64,000 bases of DNA. It comes from an uncultured Clostridia bacterium (lineage in GTDB: Bacteria; Bacillota; Clostridia; Oscillospirales; CAG-382). Numbering within the stretch: position 1 is the first letter of the stretch; every line of letters begins with the position of its first letter. The translations under genes were made by a program, and so were the position numbers. The stretch lies in assembly GCA_947630765.1 (NCBI GenBank), contig CANRIX010000005.1, positions 1-64,000 of the forward strand, in the 5' to 3' direction. The notes under the pieces were generated by a model that worked only from the letters and a program-made list of their open reading frames with translations, made no database searches and was not told the DNA's origin. Of the stretch, positions 17,283-59,633 are shown piece by piece.

Positions 17283-17810
17283 AAATCTCTTTCCAACATA
17301 GCTGTTTTTCACCGACATTTTACGCTTGCGGGACAACCGCGTCCCGCATTTTCGCTGACGCGAAAAACGCGTAAAAGTCGACAGTGTCGGGTCGAGGTAT
17401 GCAAAAGGTCGAACGTCTGGGTTCCCGACACCGACGTTTTACGCTTGCGGAGCAGAAGCGCTCCGCATTTTCGCTGGCGCGAAAAACGCGTAAAAGTCGA
17501 GCGCCTCGGGATATTGGAAAGAGACTGAGCGTCTCTTTCCAACACCGACGTTTTACGCTTGCGGAGCAGAAGCGCTCCGCATTTTCGCTGACGCGAAAAA
17601 CGCGTAAAAGTCGACAGCGTCGGGTCGAGGTATGCGAAAGACGGAATGTTGGCTTCCCCGACACCGACATTTTACGCTTGCGGGACAACCGCGTCCCGCA
17701 TTTTCGCTGGCGCGAAAAACGCGTAAAAGTCGACAGTGTTGGGGCGAGGTATGCGAAAGATTGAATGTTGGCTTCCCCAACACCGACGTTTTACGTTTTC
17801 GCTCCCGTTT
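17263..17810 (+). repeat. tandem array of folded palindromic units behind rpiB
   Basis: Four complete units (17313-17380, 17432-17499, 17546-17613 and 17665-17732) and a decayed fifth (about 17783-17825) alternate with simple hairpins. Each unit has a closing stem TTTTACGC/GCGTAAAA holding two hairpins: an 8-bp stem with a 6-nt loop (AACCGC or AGAAGC) and TTTTCGC-TGRC-GCGAAAA. Variable stem positions change in matched pairs (GGGAC/GTCCC against GGAGC/GCTCC). The first hairpin overlaps the rpiB stop. It is non-coding. A diverged relative lies at 51520-51600 on the other strand. Confidence 0.9.
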
Positions 17811-17869
17811 GGCAGGAGCCGAACGTGGAGAAAAACGGAAAAATTTTTGCAAAAAACGGAAATTTCCTC

Positions 17870-17898
17870 TTGACAAGGCTTGTTTCTTCTGCTATAAT
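17870..17898 (+). promoter_or_regulatory. sigma-A promoter of rpmG-secE-nusG-rplKA
   Basis: TTGACA (17870-17875) and TATAAT (17893-17898) are spaced 17 bp, with TGC before the -10: full consensus. The leader to rpmG is about 145 nt and has no recognised regulatory fold. Confidence 0.93.
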
Positions 17899-18047
17899 AG
17901 AAACACCTCTGAACGTGAGGTCTTTTTGTTGTGGGTTTTCGGGAGAATTTTCGATTTCCGCTCCCGGCGGCCGACGGCAAAAGCGACCGCTCGCGTGGAT
18001 AGAGGGAGGTAAAAATTCCCAACAAGGAACATTGGAGGTGCCGAAAC

Positions 18048-18197
18048 ATGAGGGTGAAGATCACTCTGGTTTGCACGGAGTGCAAGCAAAGAAACTATGA
18101 CACGATGAAAAACAAGAAAAACGACCCTGACCGGTTGGAAATGAAGAAGTATTGCAGATTCTGCCGCAAACACACGGTCCACAAAGAAAGCAAGTGA
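18048..18197 (+). CDS. rpmG: 50S ribosomal protein L33
   Basis: A 49-residue protein, [17 protein letters not shown] at the start, with two Cys pairs (CTEC and CRFC) of the zinc-binding L33 form. TTGGAGGTG precedes the ATG. It occupies the usual Firmicute place before secE and nusG. Confidence 0.97.
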
Positions 18198-18209
18198 GGG
18201 GTGGAAGCC

Positions 18210-18812
18210 ATGTCGAAGAACAGACTCCTGAGGCTTTTGCCGGTTCTGCTTGCGCTTCTGCTGGTTTTCTCCGCTTCGGTCTTTGCGCCGTTCGCTGAGC
18301 CGGACGATACGTCCTCGGAAGCGACCACTTCGGAGGTGACTTCTTCGGAAGCAGCTTCGGAGGAGACTTCGTCCGATACGTCCTCGGAAGCGACCTCGGA
18401 GGAAGCTTCGTCCGACGCGTCCTCGGAAGCGGTTGCGGAAGAATCGTCTACCGACGGGGAATCGGAAGCGTCTACGGACGAGGAAGCGACCTCGGACGCG
18501 GAAAGCGACGCGACGGAAGAGGAAGCAGGGAGCAGCATCCCGTGGAAGCTGATCATTTCGCTGATCGTCATCGTCGCGATCGTTGCGATCCTGTTCATCC
18601 TCGCCAAGACCAACAGCAAGCTCGGGCAGCGGATCGCGAAATTCTTCAAGGATTACAAGAGCGAGATCAGCAAGATCTCGTGGATGCCTCGCAACGAACT
18701 GGTTCGGAGCACGCTGGTCGTGCTGGCGGTCATTGTGGCGTCCGCGATCGTGATCGGGCTGCTGGATCTCCTGTTCTCGTTCTTGGTCGGTTTGCTGTCG
18801 TTCGGCAACTGA
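18210..18812 (+). CDS. secE: SecE translocase subunit with an added signal sequence and acidic stalk
   Basis: The last ~70 residues are a normal SecE core: an amphipathic helix FFKDYKSEISKISWMPRNE and a membrane helix VVLAVIVASAIVIGLLDLL. In front is an unusual addition. A hydrophobic signal-like helix (about 7-27) is followed by a low-complexity Ser/Thr/Glu/Asp segment (about 30-108), then an extra membrane helix (about 112-133). Total length is 200 residues against about 60-80 for most Gram-positive SecE. The stalk would lie outside the cell. Position between rpmG and nusG confirms identity. The start could also be GTG 18201. Confidence 0.92.
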   Translation: MSKNRLLRLLPVLLALLLVFSASVFAPFAEPDDTSSEATTSEVTSSEAASEETSSDTSSEATSEEASSDASSEAVAEESSTDGESEASTDEEATSDAESDATEEEAGSSIPWKLIISLIVIVAIVAILFILAKTNSKLGQRIAKFFKDYKSEISKISWMPRNELVRSTLVVLAVIVASAIVIGLLDLLFSFLVGLLSFGN

Positions 18813-18827
18813 AAGGTTGGTTGACAG

Positions 18828-19370
18828 ATGAGCTTGCCGCAGGAAAGCACCCCGCTTTGGTACGTGGTGCACACCTATACCGGGTATGAAAACAAGGTTC
18901 TGAGCAATCTGGAAAAAATCATCGAGAACCGTGGGATCAGCGATTTGATCCAAGCGGTTCGCATCCCGACGGAGACGGTCACGGAGCTGACCGAAAACGG
19001 GGAAAAGGAAATCGAACGGAAGCTGTTTCCGAGCTACGTCTTCATCAAAATGATCATGAACGATGAGATGTGGCATATCGTCCGCAATACGACCGGCGTG
19101 ACCGGGTTCGTCGGCCCGGGTTCGCGCCCCGTCCCGCTTTCCGAGGAGGAAGTGGAGAAGCTGGGGGTGGATCCGAAGGTCATCGAGGTCCGCTTCGCGG
19201 TCGGGGACAACGTGCGCATCTGCGCCGGACCGCTTTCCGGGTTCATCGGCGTCGTCGATGAAATTTCGGCGGACAAGAAGTCCGTCAAGGTCACGGCGTC
19301 CATGTTCGGGCGGGAGACGAAGGTGGAGCTCGGCTCCATGGAGGTCAGTCCGCTGGACGAGACCGTGTAA
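18828..19370 (+). CDS. nusG: transcription termination/antitermination factor NusG
   Basis: A 180-residue protein with an NGN domain (WYVVHTYTGYENKV to about residue 110, including LFPSYVFIKM) and a C-terminal KOW domain (FAVGDNVRICAGPLSGFIGVVDEI). NusG binds RNA polymerase and couples to ribosomes. It lies 15 bp behind secE, the canonical arrangement. Confidence 0.97.
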   Translation: MSLPQESTPLWYVVHTYTGYENKVLSNLEKIIENRGISDLIQAVRIPTETVTELTENGEKEIERKLFPSYVFIKMIMNDEMWHIVRNTTGVTGFVGPGSRPVPLSEEEVEKLGVDPKVIEVRFAVGDNVRICAGPLSGFIGVVDEISADKKSVKVTASMFGRETKVELGSMEVSPLDETV

Positions 19371-19379
19371 CAATTCGCA

Positions 19380-19421
19380 AAGAAACGTTCCTGCCGCCTT
19401 GCCAAGCGGCGGGGCGAAACG
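19380..19421 (+). promoter_or_regulatory. hairpin in the nusG-rplK gap
   Basis: AACGTTCCTGCCGCC and GCGGCGGGGCGAAACGT form a long imperfect stem in the 108-nt gap. There is no T run directly behind it. It could be a processing or L11 autoregulation site; I only see the fold. Confidence 0.35.
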
Positions 19422-19478
19422 TGGGAGGGACGACGGTCCCGAAAAAAGATTTTTACCACATTCGGAGGTGTAATTCTC

Positions 19479-19904
19479 ATGGCAAAGAAGGTTGTCGGTT
19501 ATATCAAGCTGCAGATCCCGGCGGGGAAAGCGACTCCCCAGCCGCCGATCGGTCCGGCGCTCGGTCAGTACGGCGTCGCGATTCAGGTGTTCACGAAGGA
19601 ATTCAACGAACGCACGAAGAACGACATCGGTCTGATCATCCCGGTCATCATCACGGTCTATGCAGACCGTTCGTTCACGTTCATCACCAAGACGCCGCCT
19701 GCCGCCGTGCTGATCAAGAAGGCGATCGGTATCGAGAGCGGTTCCGGCGTTCCCCAGTCCCAGAAGGTCGGGCAGATCACCAAGGAACAGGTCCGCAAGA
19801 TCGCGGAGACCAAAATGCCCGATTTGAACGCGTCGTCGATCGAAAGCGCGATGCGTATGATCGCCGGGACGGCGCGCAGCATGGGCGTCGTCGTGGTAGA
19901 CTAA
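19479..19904 (+). CDS. rplK: 50S ribosomal protein L11
   Basis: A 141-residue protein with the expected start ([26 protein letters not shown]) in two parts: the N-terminal proline-rich switch domain and a C-terminal rRNA-binding domain ending [11 protein letters not shown]. Length is exactly typical. CGGAGG lies upstream, and rplA follows after 15 bp. Confidence 0.97.
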
Positions 19905-19919
19905 AGGAGGGCCGGAGAG

Positions 19920-20615
19920 ATGAAGAGAGGCAAGAAGTATACCGCCGCGGCGTCCGCGGTGGATAAGTCCAAGCTGTACGAAAGCGCGGAAGCGCTGGGA
20001 CTGGTTTGCGAGATCGCGAAGGCGAAGTTCGACGAAACGGTCGAGCTGCACGTCCGTTTGGGCGTCGATTCGCGGCACGCGGACCAGCAGGTGCGTGGTG
20101 CGGTCGTTCTGCCGAACGGCACCGGCAAGACCATTCGGACGCTGGTGTTCGCGCGTGGCGACCGTGCGGAACAGGCGCAGGCCGCCGGTGCGGATTACGT
20201 CGGCGCGGAGGACCTCGTGCAGAAGATCACGGGCGAGAACTGGTTCGAGTTCGACGTGGTCATCGCGACGCCGGATATGATGGGCGTCATCGGTCGTTTG
20301 GGTAAGGTGCTCGGCCCGAAGGGGTTGATGCCGTCGCCGAAGGCCGGTACGGTCACGATGGACGTCGCGCGTGCGGTGTCCGAGGCGAAAGCCGGTAAGA
20401 TCGAGTACCGTCTGGACAAGACGAATATCATCCACTGCCCGATCGGGAAGGTCAGCTTCGGCAAGGAGAAGCTGAGCGAGAACTTCGACGCGCTCATGGG
20501 CGCGATCGTCAAGGCTCGCCCGGCAGCGCTGAAGGGGCAGTATATCAAGTCCTGCTCCGTCACGTCGACGATGGGCCCCGGTATCCGGGTCAACACCGCT
20601 CGTCTGGCGAACTAA
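19920..20615 (+). CDS. rplA: 50S ribosomal protein L1
   Basis: A 231-residue protein with the L1 signature [21 protein letters not shown] (about residues 121-140). L1 builds the mobile stalk at the E site and often represses its own operon. The stop is followed by a terminator, and rplJL does not follow directly, which is unusual. Confidence 0.97.
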
Positions 20616-20636
20616 GCGGATCGGTAAAAGCGCAAA

Positions 20637-20665
20637 AGAGAGGACGTTGTGAACGTCCTCTTTTT
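20637..20665 (+). terminator. terminator after rplA
   Basis: GAGGACGTT and AACGTCCTC form a stem with a GTG loop and TTTTT behind. It ends the rpmG-rplA operon. Confidence 0.92.
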
Positions 20666-20757
20666 CGTTTTTCGGTCGGAGCTTGCCGCGAACGGGGGAG
20701 TTTGCCTTTCGGTCGGCGAAAATTTGTAAACAAACTGTAAACTCCCGCGCTGAACAC

Positions 20758-20786
20758 TTGACTTTTTCTGAAAATTGTTTTAACAT
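20758..20786 (+). promoter_or_regulatory. promoter of the lipoprotein at 20832
   Basis: TTGACT (20758) and TAACAT (20781-20786) are spaced 17 bp, in an AT-rich stretch. Confidence 0.65.
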
Positions 20787-20831
20787 GTAGATATGAAATT
20801 TAGGAAACATTCAGAAAAGGATGGGATCTTT

Positions 20832-42554: not shown

Positions 42555-43556
42555 TTATCTTGTTCTGATGCGAAGCGTTACGGCCGCGCCGACCGCGCCG
42601 AGGATCGCAAGCACCGCGAACACGAGCAGCCCCGTGTCACCCGCCTGCACTCCGCCGGACGACGTCGAGCCGGTGGAACCAGTGGAGCTGGCGGAACCAG
42701 TGGAGCCGGTCGAACCCGTGGAGCTAGTGGAACCTGTCGAGCCGGTGGAATCGGTGGACCCGGTCGAACCAGTAGACCCGGTGGAATCGGTGGACGAGGA
42801 GTCGGTCGAGCCCGTAGAGCCGGTTGAATCAGTCGACGAAGAATCCGTCGACGAGGAGTCGGTCGACGAGGAATCGGTCGACGAAGAATCCGTGGACGAA
42901 GAATCCGTCGAACCGGCGGACGAGGAATCGCTGGACGTGGAACCCGTCGACGGCTTCACGAGCGGCGTGCCGACGACCATGGCGTTCTCGTCGCTGACCA
43001 GCGCGAGCGTGTTGAGCGTGACGACGTCGCCGGTTTTCGCCGCCGTGATGTCAAGGTCCTTGAATTCGTGGACGTTGTTTTCGAACCGCTTGTCCCCCGT
43101 GACGTAGGCGGGCAGGTCCCAGACGATGGACGTGTCCGTCGAACGCTTGGTATAGGAAGCGTTTTTCTTCATGCCGGTGAAGAACAGGTCCGCGTTCCCG
43201 CCGTCCTTGTCCTTGCGGGTGTAGTGGATTCGGAAGTCGACGTCCTTGTTTTCGCTGACGAAATCGGCGGCGACGAAGGTTGGCTTGGACAGGTCGACCT
43301 GTGCGCCCGTGTAGTCCGCGAGGTGGATCGGCGTGTCCTCGGACGCGTCCTTCTTGAACGTGAGCGTGACCGAGCCGTTTTCGTTGCGTTTGACCGTCAC
43401 GGATTCGTTGTCGGTATCCTGCAGCGAAGCGAGGAAGTCGACGATCACGACCGAGGACGGCTCCCCGCTGACCGGCTTGCTGTCCGCCGCCATCGCGCAG
43501 ACCGCGCCGAGCGACAGCAGTACCGCCGCCAGCAGAACGGAAATGAACTTTTTCAT
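42555..43556 (-). CDS. tail-anchored surface protein with D3 domain
   Basis: A 333-residue secreted protein. A signal peptide (1-23) precedes D3 (about 30-190; VDFRIHYTRKDKD, SIVWDLPAYVTG, LNTLALVSD), shared with the proteins at 43726 and 56949. A stalk of Ser/Thr/Asp/Gly repeats (about 195-300) ends in VQAGDTGLLVFAVLAIL and the tail RIRTR. No catalytic residues were recognised. D3 may be a binding module. It lies next to the GH26-like genes. Confidence 0.82.
   Translation of the reverse strand: MKKFISVLLAAVLLSLGAVCAMAADSKPVSGEPSSVVIVDFLASLQDTDNESVTVKRNENGSVTLTFKKDASEDTPIHLADYTGAQVDLSKPTFVAADFVSENKDVDFRIHYTRKDKDGGNADLFFTGMKKNASYTKRSTDTSIVWDLPAYVTGDKRFENNVHEFKDLDITAAKTGDVVTLNTLALVSDENAMVVGTPLVKPSTGSTSSDSSSAGSTDSSSTDSSSTDSSSTDSSSTDSSSTDSTGSTGSTDSSSTDSTGSTGSTGSTDSTGSTGSTSSTGSTGSTGSASSTGSTGSTSSGGVQAGDTGLLVFAVLAILGAVGAAVTLRIRTR
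42655..42950 (-). repeat. coding tandem repeats in the D3-protein stalk
   Basis: Units of 15 bp coding D-S-S-S-T and 9-bp units coding S-T-G or T-G-S alternate. The repeats are near-identical at the DNA level, so unit number may vary between strains. Confidence 0.8.
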
Positions 43557-43725: not shown

Positions 43726-44577
43726 TTAGTGTCTTACACGGACAACCGCAACACCGCCGACAACCGCGAGAACCGCGAGAACTGCGAACACGATCATACC
43801 CGTGTCGCCGGTTCCCGGAGCGGTCGAGCTGCTGGAAGCAGGAGCTTCGCTGGAGCTGGAAGCAGGAGCTTCGCTGGAGCTTTCAGCCGTCGTGGTGGTC
43901 TCGGTCGAAGAAGCCTCGCTGGAGGTAGCTTCGGTCGTGGTAGTTTCGGTCGTGGTGGATTCGGTCGGATCCTCGGTCGCGGCAGGCTTCACAAGCGGTT
44001 CGCCCGGCTTCAGCGCGGACGCGTCGGAAATCAGCGCGAGGGTGTTGAAGGTGATCGGTTTGTCTTTCTTGCCGACCGTGATCACCAGATCGGTGTACTG
44101 GTGCATATTGTCAGCGTTGAGCTTGTCGTTATCGGTCAGATACTTGGTGACGTTCCAGACAACGGAGGTTTCGGTCTTGGCAGCGGCGTAAGCGGCGTTT
44201 CCATCGGTACGCATACCGGTCCAGAACTGGTCGGCAAGCTTATCCTTGCGGGTGTAGTGAAGACGGAAATCGATGTCCGTGATTTCGCAGGCGATGTCCA
44301 CAGCGAGATAGGTCTGCTTGGTCGCGTCGAACTTGCCGCCTTCAAAGGCAGTGACGATGGTGGCGGGGGTATTCGCATCGATGTCACGCTTCGGCGTGAC
44401 GGTGACGGTGCCGTTGTCGTTGACGACGACCGTGACGTCAGCCGTGTCGGCCGCCTTGATTTCGCTGAGCAAGTTGTAGATGACGGGGCTGGTCTCTTCC
44501 GCGGAAACTGCGAGCGCGCAGGTGACGGAAGCGATCAGCATCGTCGCGATGAGGAGCGCTGAGAGTAACTTTTTCAT
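43726..44577 (-). CDS. tail-anchored surface protein with D3 domain
   Basis: A 283-residue secreted protein. A signal peptide (about 1-26) precedes D3 (about 30-185; IDFRLHYTRKDK, SVVWNVTKYLTD, TFNTLALISD). A Thr/Glu/Ser-rich stalk follows, then APGTGDTGMIVFAVLAVL and the end VRVRH. It differs from its neighbour in stalk composition, not in layout. The ATG at 44577 has AAAGGGG upstream; an open frame extending further 5' crosses the promoter. Confidence 0.82.
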   Translation of the reverse strand: MKKLLSALLIATMLIASVTCALAVSAEETSPVIYNLLSEIKAADTADVTVVVNDNGTVTVTPKRDIDANTPATIVTAFEGGKFDATKQTYLAVDIACEITDIDFRLHYTRKDKLADQFWTGMRTDGNAAYAAAKTETSVVWNVTKYLTDNDKLNADNMHQYTDLVITVGKKDKPITFNTLALISDASALKPGEPLVKPAATEDPTESTTTETTTTEATSSEASSTETTTTAESSSEAPASSSSEAPASSSSTAPGTGDTGMIVFAVLAVLAVVGGVAVVRVRH

Positions 44578-44661
44578 TGCTGTTTTTCCCCTTTCGGTTT
44601 TTCTTTTTTGTTTGGCGGTTTGCATCGGCTTTTGCAAAGGAACCGATTCAAAACCACTTTC

Positions 44662-56948: not shown

Positions 56949-59633
56949 TTAGCGTCTCACTTTCACTGCGACGATGGCGCCGACAGTGGAGAGGACACCG
57001 AGAATAGCGAACACCAGCATGCTGCTGTCGCCGGTCTGGGGAGACGTGGACGTGCTCGCCGCAGAGGACGTGCCTGTCCCGGAAGCCGTAGACTGGCTGG
57101 AGGAGGTAGTGCTGGAGGTTTCGCTGGACGCGTCGCTGGAGGTGTCACTGGACGTGTCACTGGAGGTTTCGCTGGACGTGTCACTGGACGTGTCACTGGA
57201 GGTGTCGCTGGACGTATCGCTGGACGTATCGCTGGACGTGTCGCTGGACGTGTCACTGGACGTGTCACTGGATGTGTCGCTGGACGTGTCACTGGAGGTG
57301 TCGCTGGACGTATCGCTGGACGTGTCGCTGGACGTGTCGCTGGAGGTATCGCTGGACGTGTCGCTGGACGTGTCGCTGGACGTGTCGCTGGACGTGTCAC
57401 CGCTGGGCTCAACATAATCGCCACGGGTGATGAGCGGGGTGCCGACTGTCATCGCATCTTTCACGTTGACAAACGCATACGTGTTGAACGTGATGGTGTC
57501 GCCAGCGTTCGCATTGGTGAACGTGAGGTCGCCGAGGGCACTGCCGCCCGCGACTGCACGGTTACTACCGACATACTTGCTGAAGTCCCAAACGAACCAA
57601 TCTTCGCCCTTCTCTTCGGCGGCACCTTTCCCGCTGTCATAATACGCTTCTGCATAGGGGTTCTTGTCAGACCGCGCATAGTGCAGGAAGAAGTTGATAT
57701 TCGCGTCGCTTCTCACAACGTCCGCAACGAAATACAGGTTCAGTCTGGTCAGGTCGAGCTTTGCGCCGATAGTATCCACGATCGTAAGACGGTTGTCATT
57801 CGTCACATTCCTATGGAACGTGATGGTGACAGAGCTGTCCTTGTTGACCTTGATGGTGTATTCGTCGGTTTCGGTGTTCGTCAGCGCGGACAGAACATCG
57901 AATTCGATCACATCAAGCGTATCAAGTTTCATCTCGTCTGCGTTGAACGTGACGTATGGAGCGGTATTGGTTTCACCGGAATAGTTGGTGATATAGCCGT
58001 TATCGCCCATTTCGGCGTTTTCGCTCGCGATATGCAGCGCCTGATACGTGGCCGTGCGATCCTCGGTCGGCTCGAGATTGGTGCTGTATGTGACATACAT
58101 ACGGTAATCGCCGGTCACGAGGAACATCGCTTTCTTGAAGGAAACTTCCGCGGTCAGCTTGTTATCCGCATAGTTGATCGCATAGTTATCGCTGGTGAAG
58201 TCGGACAGTTTTGCAGAAACTTCCGCGTCGCTGTAAATCAGACGGACGACCGTCCAACCCTTTTCCTCGCCAAGGTACTGAATGTCGATCGCGTAGCGCA
58301 GATTGTCCTTGACGCGGATCCAGACGCGGAGCATGGAAGTCGCGGTTTGGTTGTACCCAACGATCTGCGTACCGGCGTCATTCGGCGTCATATCGGGGGC
58401 ATAGCCCTCATTGATGGACGGAGCCGGGATGTTGTCGATCTCGACACCGACATAGACGTTTTCGTCATCCGTACGGGTCTCAAACTTCGCGGTAACGTTT
58501 TTGGGCTCGGGAGCATTGTTTTGCTGCCAGTATGTTTTGGAAACCTGCGGTGTCTTGGTCCAGCCGGTATCGTCCAGCTTGCCGTCGATCGCGATCGCTT
58601 CCTTGACGGTGGGTTCCTTCTCAAACGAGAGGGCGTTCCAAGTGACCTTCCACACGTAGATGCTCAGGGTGACCTTCGTGATCGTGATCTTGCCGGTGGT
58701 TCCGGCATATCTGGCAAAATCATAGTAGGTATCCGATGTATTTCTGAAATCGTTCGCTGTGCCCGTCGCAACATTAGAGAGCTGCGCGGTCTTTTCTTCG
58801 GTGCCACCCTCTTCGGTGTAGTAAATCATGCCGTTGACGCCCACTTCGCCCGTCGTTTCCGGGACGGTGAAATCCAGATGCAGGTAGGGCGTTTCGGAAA
58901 GGTCAATGACGATGCCCTGGGCATTATCCAAGCTGATGGACGGCCATGCAAGGTCACTATCTGCCGCTCTGGCCATCGTCAACTTGCCGTTGTCGATGGA
59001 GAAATCGACTTTGGAGGTTGCTCCCGAGTTGGGAACTTGCGACACTTGATCCTCGCTCGTCGGGAGCAGGGAAACGACATCCGCGTTTTCCGGCTCGTCT
59101 CCGCCCTGCGCGGGAGCGGGACCGCGATACAGCGTCGCGCCGGACGCGTCGTCGTTGACAACGATCTGCCAATCCGTCGTGACATCACGGACGCCATTGT
59201 ACAGGGCGCCTTCGAGGGCTTCGAGCTCCCCGTAGTATGCTTTGAGCTCGGGATTTGCGTTCCCGTCCCCGGTGTGGAACGCGATGGCGAAACCGCCCGC
59301 CGGAACGTCGACAGAACGGGTCCACGGGTTGGTCTCGGGGTCGGTCGGATGCGTAGCATGGGTGACGAGCTGTGCTGCGATGCGAACGATCGTGCCGTCC
59401 GCGTCGCAAACGAGAATGTACGCCCAGCGGAAGTTCCAATCATCCGACTGAAGAGTACGTACGGAGTCCGCGTTTCCAGGGTAGTAGTTGACCGATGCAT
59501 TGCCAATCACTGCATCCGTCCCTGTAAACGTGACAGTTAGTGGTTCTGCTTCCGCCGTTTGCGCAGCGAATACGCAGACGACAGAAATCACGGACAGCAC
59601 CACTGCAAGAATTAGTGCGACTGTTTTTTTCAT
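56949..59633 (-). CDS. large modular tail-anchored surface protein (D1-D2-CBM9-like-D3)
   Basis: An 894-residue secreted protein that contains all three shared modules. Signal peptide (1-24); D1 (about 30-165; DWNFRWAYILV, VPAGGFAIAFH, ALYN); D2 (about 180-345; SLLPTSED, WPSISLD, ETPYLHLDF, LSIYVW, WNALSF); a CBM9-like domain (about 350-590; AIDGKLDDTGWTKTP, YVGVEI); D3 (about 600-745; INFFLHYARSDK, VWDFSKYVG). An Asp/Thr/Ser stalk and the tail SPQTGDSSMLVFAILGVL...VKVRR end it. It probably binds glycans at the surface. No catalytic site seen. Confidence 0.85.
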   Translation of the reverse strand: MKKTVALILAVVLSVISVVCVFAAQTAEAEPLTVTFTGTDAVIGNASVNYYPGNADSVRTLQSDDWNFRWAYILVCDADGTIVRIAAQLVTHATHPTDPETNPWTRSVDVPAGGFAIAFHTGDGNANPELKAYYGELEALEGALYNGVRDVTTDWQIVVNDDASGATLYRGPAPAQGGDEPENADVVSLLPTSEDQVSQVPNSGATSKVDFSIDNGKLTMARAADSDLAWPSISLDNAQGIVIDLSETPYLHLDFTVPETTGEVGVNGMIYYTEEGGTEEKTAQLSNVATGTANDFRNTSDTYYDFARYAGTTGKITITKVTLSIYVWKVTWNALSFEKEPTVKEAIAIDGKLDDTGWTKTPQVSKTYWQQNNAPEPKNVTAKFETRTDDENVYVGVEIDNIPAPSINEGYAPDMTPNDAGTQIVGYNQTATSMLRVWIRVKDNLRYAIDIQYLGEEKGWTVVRLIYSDAEVSAKLSDFTSDNYAINYADNKLTAEVSFKKAMFLVTGDYRMYVTYSTNLEPTEDRTATYQALHIASENAEMGDNGYITNYSGETNTAPYVTFNADEMKLDTLDVIEFDVLSALTNTETDEYTIKVNKDSSVTITFHRNVTNDNRLTIVDTIGAKLDLTRLNLYFVADVVRSDANINFFLHYARSDKNPYAEAYYDSGKGAAEEKGEDWFVWDFSKYVGSNRAVAGGSALGDLTFTNANAGDTITFNTYAFVNVKDAMTVGTPLITRGDYVEPSGDTSSDTSSDTSSDTSSDTSSDTSSDTSSDTSSDTSSDTSSDTSSDTSSDTSSDTSSDTSSDTSSDTSSDTSSDTSSETSSDTSSDTSSDASSETSSTTSSSQSTASGTGTSSAASTSTSPQTGDSSMLVFAILGVLSTVGAIVAVKVRR
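57114..57399 (-). repeat. 12-bp coding tandem repeat (about two dozen copies)
   Basis: The unit encodes D-T-S-S, with a few E or A exchanges. Third-position differences (GTC/GTA, TCG/TCA) mark individual copies, so slippage variation is likely. Its complementary strand also stays open, which gives a false repeat protein. Confidence 0.92.

Follow-up and report, generated by a model that had tools for sequence, protein, structure and literature searches.

A SecE protein with a signal-peptide-like segment, an acidic stalk and an added membrane helix in Oscillospirales

The SecE protein of an uncultured Clostridia bacterium (order Oscillospirales) and of its relatives carries, ahead of its core, a signal-peptide-like segment, an acidic stalk and an additional membrane helix. 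Gene, reading frame, architecture and conservation, together with acidic tails on SecG in the same family, were established by computation around a window of 64,000 nucleotides (GenBank assembly GCA_947630765.1, contig CANRIX010000005.1, positions 1 to 64,000), which is the whole stretch of DNA analysed. The arrangement would be explained if the N-terminus of an ordinary Firmicute-type, tail-anchored SecE had given way to a Sec signal peptide, followed by a stalk that is acidic and disordered and then by a transmembrane helix. We consider it rather probable that a type-I membrane segment was fused in this way to a tail-anchored SecE, supplying a second helix and, where proteins leave the translocon, a disordered brush of acidic residues.

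SecE, the subunit that binds and stabilises SecY, is normally a tiny, membrane-hidden and essential part of the export channel, and is among the most conserved bacterial proteins. To our knowledge its exoplasmic side is usually taken as bare, and a literature search, which covered little of the subscription literature, found no description of a SecE with a signal peptide or an exoplasmic stalk. The outer face of this universal translocon seems to have been decorated repeatedly with acidic tails, on SecE and on SecG.

The secE locus and its product

The secE gene is single-copy and lies in an rpmG-secE-nusG operon (Table 1), with the genes for L11 and L1 next after nusG in the window annotation; its product is the sole SecE match detected in the genome, which is 97% complete. 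The match to PF00584 (57.3 bits against a cut-off of 22.7) is confined to residues 144-196 of 200, and TIGR00964 is matched with 53 bits (cut-off 27.55). This bears out an earlier note on this DNA, which had described a real SecE with its core limited to the C-terminal part. The SE..K..W core motif is present, and S151, E152, K155 and W158 are invariant in the ortholog alignment. Within the core motif KKI.WP (window 18660-18710 and alignment A1), most long SecE proteins have W-S/M/C/L/A where W-P is usual; the window protein reads KISWMPRN, and most short SecE proteins of the same family keep WP.

Table 1. Features of the secE locus in the window
Feature	Position	Strand	Evidence
secE, 200 aa, stop included	18210..18812	+	Pfam SecE 1.5e-15; TIGR00964
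rpmG (ribosomal protein L33), adjoins secE upstream	18048..18197	+	Pfam 2.4e-25
nusG, adjoins secE downstream	18828..19370	+	TIGR00922 171 bits
Shine-Dalgarno-like GAGGGG, overlaps L33 stop codon, 5' of ATG 18210	18196..18201	+	sequence
Signal-peptide-like segment, residues 1-29 (MSKNRLLRLLPVLLALLLVFSASVFAPFA)	18210..18296	+	hydropathy, motif, Ala29 conservation
Candidate cleavage point	after Ala29	+	Ala29 invariant; weakened in window copy by Pro at -3
Acidic S/E/T/A/D-rich stalk, residues 30-110	18297..18539	+	composition, pLDDT < 50, repeats
Added membrane helix TM2, residues 111-134	18540..18611	+	hydropathy, AlphaFold, alignment with E. coli SecE TM2
Cytosolic amphipathic helix, SecE core, residues 137-155	18618..18674	+	AlphaFold helix, Pfam/TIGRFAM match
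SecE core, PF00584, residues 144-196, including C-terminal TM (helix 161-198)	18639..18797	+	

Hydropathy marks three hydrophobic segments, at residues 9-25, 114-130 (strong) and 169-185. An AlphaFold model built from 26 orthologs places helices at residues 4-24, 112-133, 137-155 and 161-198; its confidence is low (mean pLDDT 60.3, pTM 0.27), and therefore only the helix boundaries were used. A fold search with this low-confidence model against the PDB gave no match at E values up to 10. The signal-like segment, the acidic stalk and the extra membrane helix, all of which the earlier note had read from the window copy, are indeed found there and are kept in relatives. Judging from the signal peptide and the hydrophobicity, the signal would be oriented N-in, the stalk would be extracellular, TM2 would cross the membrane out-to-in, the amphipathic helix would be cytosolic, and the core TM would run in-to-out.

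Besides secE, two other aspects of the locus were observed. An antisense open frame of 972 codons (window 17892-20810, - strand) extends across L33, SecE, NusG, L11 and L1, and is almost certainly a composition artefact. Upstream of L33, at window 17400-17830, successive copies of a repeat of about 110 bases with palindromic parts (TTTTACGCTTGCGGAGCAG...CGCGAAAAACGCGTAAAA) possibly represent a mobile or REP-like element.

Translation of the extension

In-frame ATG, GTG or TTG codons are present at residues -2, 1, 10 and 43, and none is found between residue 43 and the core at 141. A start just before the core, which the earlier note had named as the case against its reading, is thus ruled out for these codons. 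GGAGG or GGGGG occurs at the homologous place 5' of the signal-peptide start in nearly all orthologs. According to dN/dS, signal, stalk and TM2 are under purifying selection between close orthologs. For the stalk, the window species and its sister differ by 15 synonymous and 12 nonsynonymous changes, and the resulting dN/dS of 0.23 is optimistic, given that the repeats were aligned for amino-acid identity, which lowers dN. Taken together, the positions of the start codons, the Shine-Dalgarno sites and the constraint between close species indicate that the extension is translated. That the start is mis-annotated and the core alone is made deserves almost no credence, in view of the missing start codons, of the Shine-Dalgarno sequences that precede the signal's start codon in the window copy and in orthologs, and of the conservation of the extension at the protein level.

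The signal peptide and its cleavage site

Ala29, at position -1 of the candidate site, is invariant in 26 of 26 aligned orthologs although its surroundings vary. The -3/-1 rule is satisfied in 24 of them, with a small or aliphatic residue at -3, Ala at -1, and then D, E or A. The recurrence of this architecture in 26 orthologs with an invariant Ala29 is not chance. The two exceptions to the rule are the window species (VFAPFA|EPDD) and its sister (VFAPLA|EP), both with Pro at -3 of the conserved site; in both, the alternative site after VFA has Pro at +1. The signal that had been called cleavable-looking therefore deserves this description in the relatives, and far less so in the window copy, where cleavage is least certain because of these departures from the rule. 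In most relatives, signal peptidase I would cut after the conserved Ala, and the mature SecE would keep two helices and expose a free acidic N-terminus outside the cell; for the window species, where cleavage is doubtful, a form with three helices like that of E. coli may result.

In E. coli SecE the periplasmic loop between TM1 and TM2 has a few residues, and TM1 is not a cleavable signal. The signal of the long SecE might likewise stay uncleaved throughout, as in an E. coli-like protein with three TMs whose TM1-TM2 loop, once a few residues long, now measures about 80. The segments come in the order known from E. coli SecE, the profile alignment takes in TM2 of the E. coli protein, and the window species and its sister have the Pro at -3 and the VFA followed by Pro. 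Set against this are the excellent A/VxA|D/E site kept by the relatives, with Ala at -1 in 26 of 26, and a first helix whose hydrophobicity is usually below that of TM2 and TM3; relative to TM2 this holds for 26 of the 27 members having all three segments (the exception being L035). The species of genus g143 with TM2 and core only, described below, also speak against a permanent TM1, and we regard a generally uncleaved signal as possible, if rather unlikely.

The acidic stalk

The segment between signal and TM2 of the window protein has 85 aa, 89% of them S/T/E/D/A, with a net charge of -27. The stalk, predicted to be disordered and exoplasmic, is made of short tandem repeats with a 39-bp unit, and residues 29-108 mostly have a pLDDT below 50. 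Among relatives the stalk ranges from 17 to 118 residues and is nearly absent (17-26 residues) in the congeners G004 and G013; it is net-negative in every member examined. Patches of His and Asp (HDHDHDHDH, HDGHDHG) occur in the stalks of L003, L005, L008, L009, L011 and L013 and look metal-binding from their sequence; a DEHDHDHAD patch is also present in one SecG tail of family f19 (L340). In the congeners L014 and L018 the DNA of signal and stalk is near-identical, and the SecE cores show a 14% amino-acid difference, which suggests recombination within secE.

The window also encodes stalked surface proteins, at 42558-43556, 43729-44637 and 56952-59633 (all on the - strand), with a signal, an S/T-rich stalk and a membrane helix. 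Their stalks consist of long S/T/D- or T/E-repeats followed by a (T/A)GD sorting-type motif before the C-terminal helix. No LPxTG or xxxTGD motif was found before TM2 of the window SecE, where the sequence is DATEEEAGSSIPWKL and the SecE core follows. Of the proposal that the composition of the stalk equals that of the surface proteins, the shared plan of signal, low-complexity S/T-rich stalk and helix holds, whereas the repeat types differ and SecE has no (T/A)GD. Since both kinds of stalk are of low complexity, their likeness does not demonstrate a common cassette of the sort suggested in the earlier note.

Distribution and history

In the genus of the window species, SecE was recovered from 18 of 24 genomes; the 17 with an intact 5' end all carry the extension, complete with signal, linker or stalk, TM2 and core, and the eighteenth is cut by a contig end inside the stalk. 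In the same family a long SecE is found in 6 of 7 genomes of genus g5 and in 3 of 3 of genus g7, and wherever another genus gave a SecE match, the protein was short. The comparison of SecE N-termini that the earlier note had proposed thus places the extension in three genera of the family and beyond it.

A profile run against 394 genomes of the order, with subsequent reading of the genes, revealed this architecture in a second family, f19; counting one identified afterwards, eight of its genomes have signal, stalk, TM2 and core, and two further genomes have a signal, a very short linker and TM2. Within its genus g143, two species have TM2 and core only, with a short N-terminus, and a congener has a signal, a stalk of TTA repeats, TM2 and core; the short form corresponds to the cleaved product minus the stalk. 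A profile of the N-terminal half, run against 243 genomes of the class (about 230 of them from other orders), gave no match outside the order. An unrelated kind of extension occurs in two or more families of the order, among them f22 (L146, L147, L148, L149 and L150) and f16 (L217); there the core follows a multi-helix membrane domain of about 150 residues, apparently with four helices.

In a tree of NusG and L11, the long forms occupy one part of the family and short forms are nested among them (g13, g2 with g10, and G038; node support 75). A further lineage, L078, has the same architecture as the long forms, and its sister L071 lacks it. Inside the family, the whole extension seems to have disappeared on several occasions. 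Since the TM2 segments of g1, g5 and g7 are more alike than shuffles that preserve hydropathy (z 3.8-5.7), a single gain followed by several losses is the simplest history; by plain step counting, three gains cost no more. A comparison aimed at homology of the extension between the window's family and f19 gave z-scores of TM2 against shuffles from -0.6 to 3.2.

Two congeners keep as few as 17-26 residues of stalk, and the extension seems to have disappeared more than once, which speaks against a sequence-specific role and makes a neutral origin of the stalk a serious rival. Stalk and signal-anchor would have become attached and been tolerated without any function, the core alone being essential. 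The variable length, the slippage-like tandem repeats, the losses and the independent appearance of tails on SecG would all follow. However, signal, TM2 and the Ala at -1 are kept in all intact members of the genus despite deep protein divergence, the acidic charge is always kept, and dN/dS is low in the measurable close pairs, though alignment of the repeats lowers dN. Signal and TM2 look constrained at the sequence level, and we hold purely neutral accretion to be a tentative explanation, with clearly less than an even chance.

Acidic tails on SecG

In E. coli the termini of SecG are exoplasmic. A survey of the SecG genes of the family (L236-L294) revealed, in 56 of 58 genomes, net-negative C-terminal tails of 25-115 residues, rich in S/E/D/A/T and in repeats, which would likewise be exoplasmic and which occur with long and with short SecE alike. 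SecG of the window genome (G000:C16:18204-18419) has a short tail, with 27 residues and a net charge of -3. Acidic tails are also found in f16 (8 of 8 read) and in part of f19; in the genomes read from f2, f6, f12, f13, f22 and most of f24, the tails have 1-9 residues.

Strict complementarity between SecE stalk and SecG tail was not supported, with tail-length medians of 59.5 versus 62.5 (p=0.48) and a within-genus rho of -0.16 (p=0.55). Where SecE is stalked, the SecG tails carry less negative charge (median -11 versus -19), with p=0.003 in a comparison that ignores kinship. In f19, some genomes have a SecE stalk and no SecG tail (G354, G250, G334, G299), others have both (G256, G197) or a tail only (G142, G116, G080, G188, G099). 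In this family, 2 genomes with a stalk have a tail and 4 do not, the respective numbers without a stalk are 5 and 7, and no significant association was detected. An acidic exoplasmic appendage can therefore sit on SecE or on SecG, without significant association. The idea that the stalk replaces SecDF or SecG was rejected, as nearly every stalked genome has SecD/SecF and SecG; in the window genome, SecD and SecF look ordinary.

Possible roles at the translocon exit

In the favoured model of a fused type-I segment, TM2 would sit beside SecY where E. coli SecE has its own TM2, and the SecE stalk and the acidic SecG C-terminal tail would jointly make up a disordered brush of negative charge where the translocon opens to the outside. 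Such a brush might prevent wall polymer and premature contacts from obstructing the exit. This role of the stalk is inferred, and the evidence against it comprises the range in stalk length, its near-absence in two congeners, the repeated losses and the lack of anticorrelation with SecG tails. A further-reaching version, in which several families have a functional acidic brush at the translocon mouth (on the SecE N-terminus, the SecG C-terminus or both) that is active in export as an exit-side trap, an ion buffer or a chaperone-like surface, and in which SecE has become a signal-peptidase substrate to this end, appears improbable to us.

We know of no feedback role for the insertion of E. coli SecE. 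With an added signal, SecE would have to pass the Sec channel and signal peptidase, which could couple the supply of translocons to export capacity. This follows from the added signal, the canonical short SecE being signal-less and tail-anchored (PMC3087755), but E. coli SecE is already inserted in a Sec-dependent manner or via YidC (PMC3087755), and an assembly feedback of this kind is quite improbable. Still less probable is the proposal of the earlier note that the stalk assists the transfer of secreted proteins rich in stalks. The window and the genome sample do contain surface proteins with S/T-rich stalks, but the stalk of SecE has no sequence specificity, its length runs from 17 to 118 residues with little left in G004 and G013, losses are repeated, and sister genera with a short SecE carry acidic counterparts on SecG.

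A signal-less, tail-anchored protein would here have turned into one that is apparently dependent on Sec and on signal peptidase, which raises the question of how the translocon's own subunit is inserted. Moreover, with acidic tails recurring on SecE and on SecG, a function of the outer mouth of the translocon becomes testable by simple deletion, and a TM2 alignable with that of E. coli SecE is now seen in Gram-positives.

Comparison with known systems

The stalked, TGD-anchored surface proteins resemble SecE in their signal peptide, low-complexity S/T-rich stalk and membrane helix, whereas SecE has no TG motif before the helix and continues into its core. The SecG (PF03840) tails lie on the same side of the membrane as the SecE stalk and are likewise acidic and rich in S/E/D/A, but they belong to another subunit, are C-terminal and need no signal peptide.

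Gram-positive SecE has a single C-terminal TM and no signal, as in the 59-aa protein of B. subtilis and in Streptomyces SCO4646 (PMC3087755, PMC12445088). The window protein shares with this form the C-terminal core of amphipathic helix and TM and the operon with L33 and NusG, and departs from it in having a signal peptide, an exoplasmic stalk and a second helix, so that it does not fall within the tail-anchored type defined by a missing N-terminal signal and a single C-terminal TM. Sister genera of the same family have a SecE of exactly the tail-anchored form. Against single-helix-type SecE, the profile of TM2 and core (A1) aligns in the core only; against E. coli SecE it aligns with residues 47-124, including TM2. 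Full-length models of the proteobacterial PRK05740 type match the window protein from about residue 117, the best with 48.4 bits, far short of the cut-off of 150. The three-TM SecE of E. coli has the same order of segments (N-terminal hydrophobic segment, exoplasmic part, TM2, amphipathic helix and core TM), probably in the same orientation, and differs in its short TM1-TM2 loop, which corresponds to about 80 residues in the window protein and to 17-118 in its relatives.
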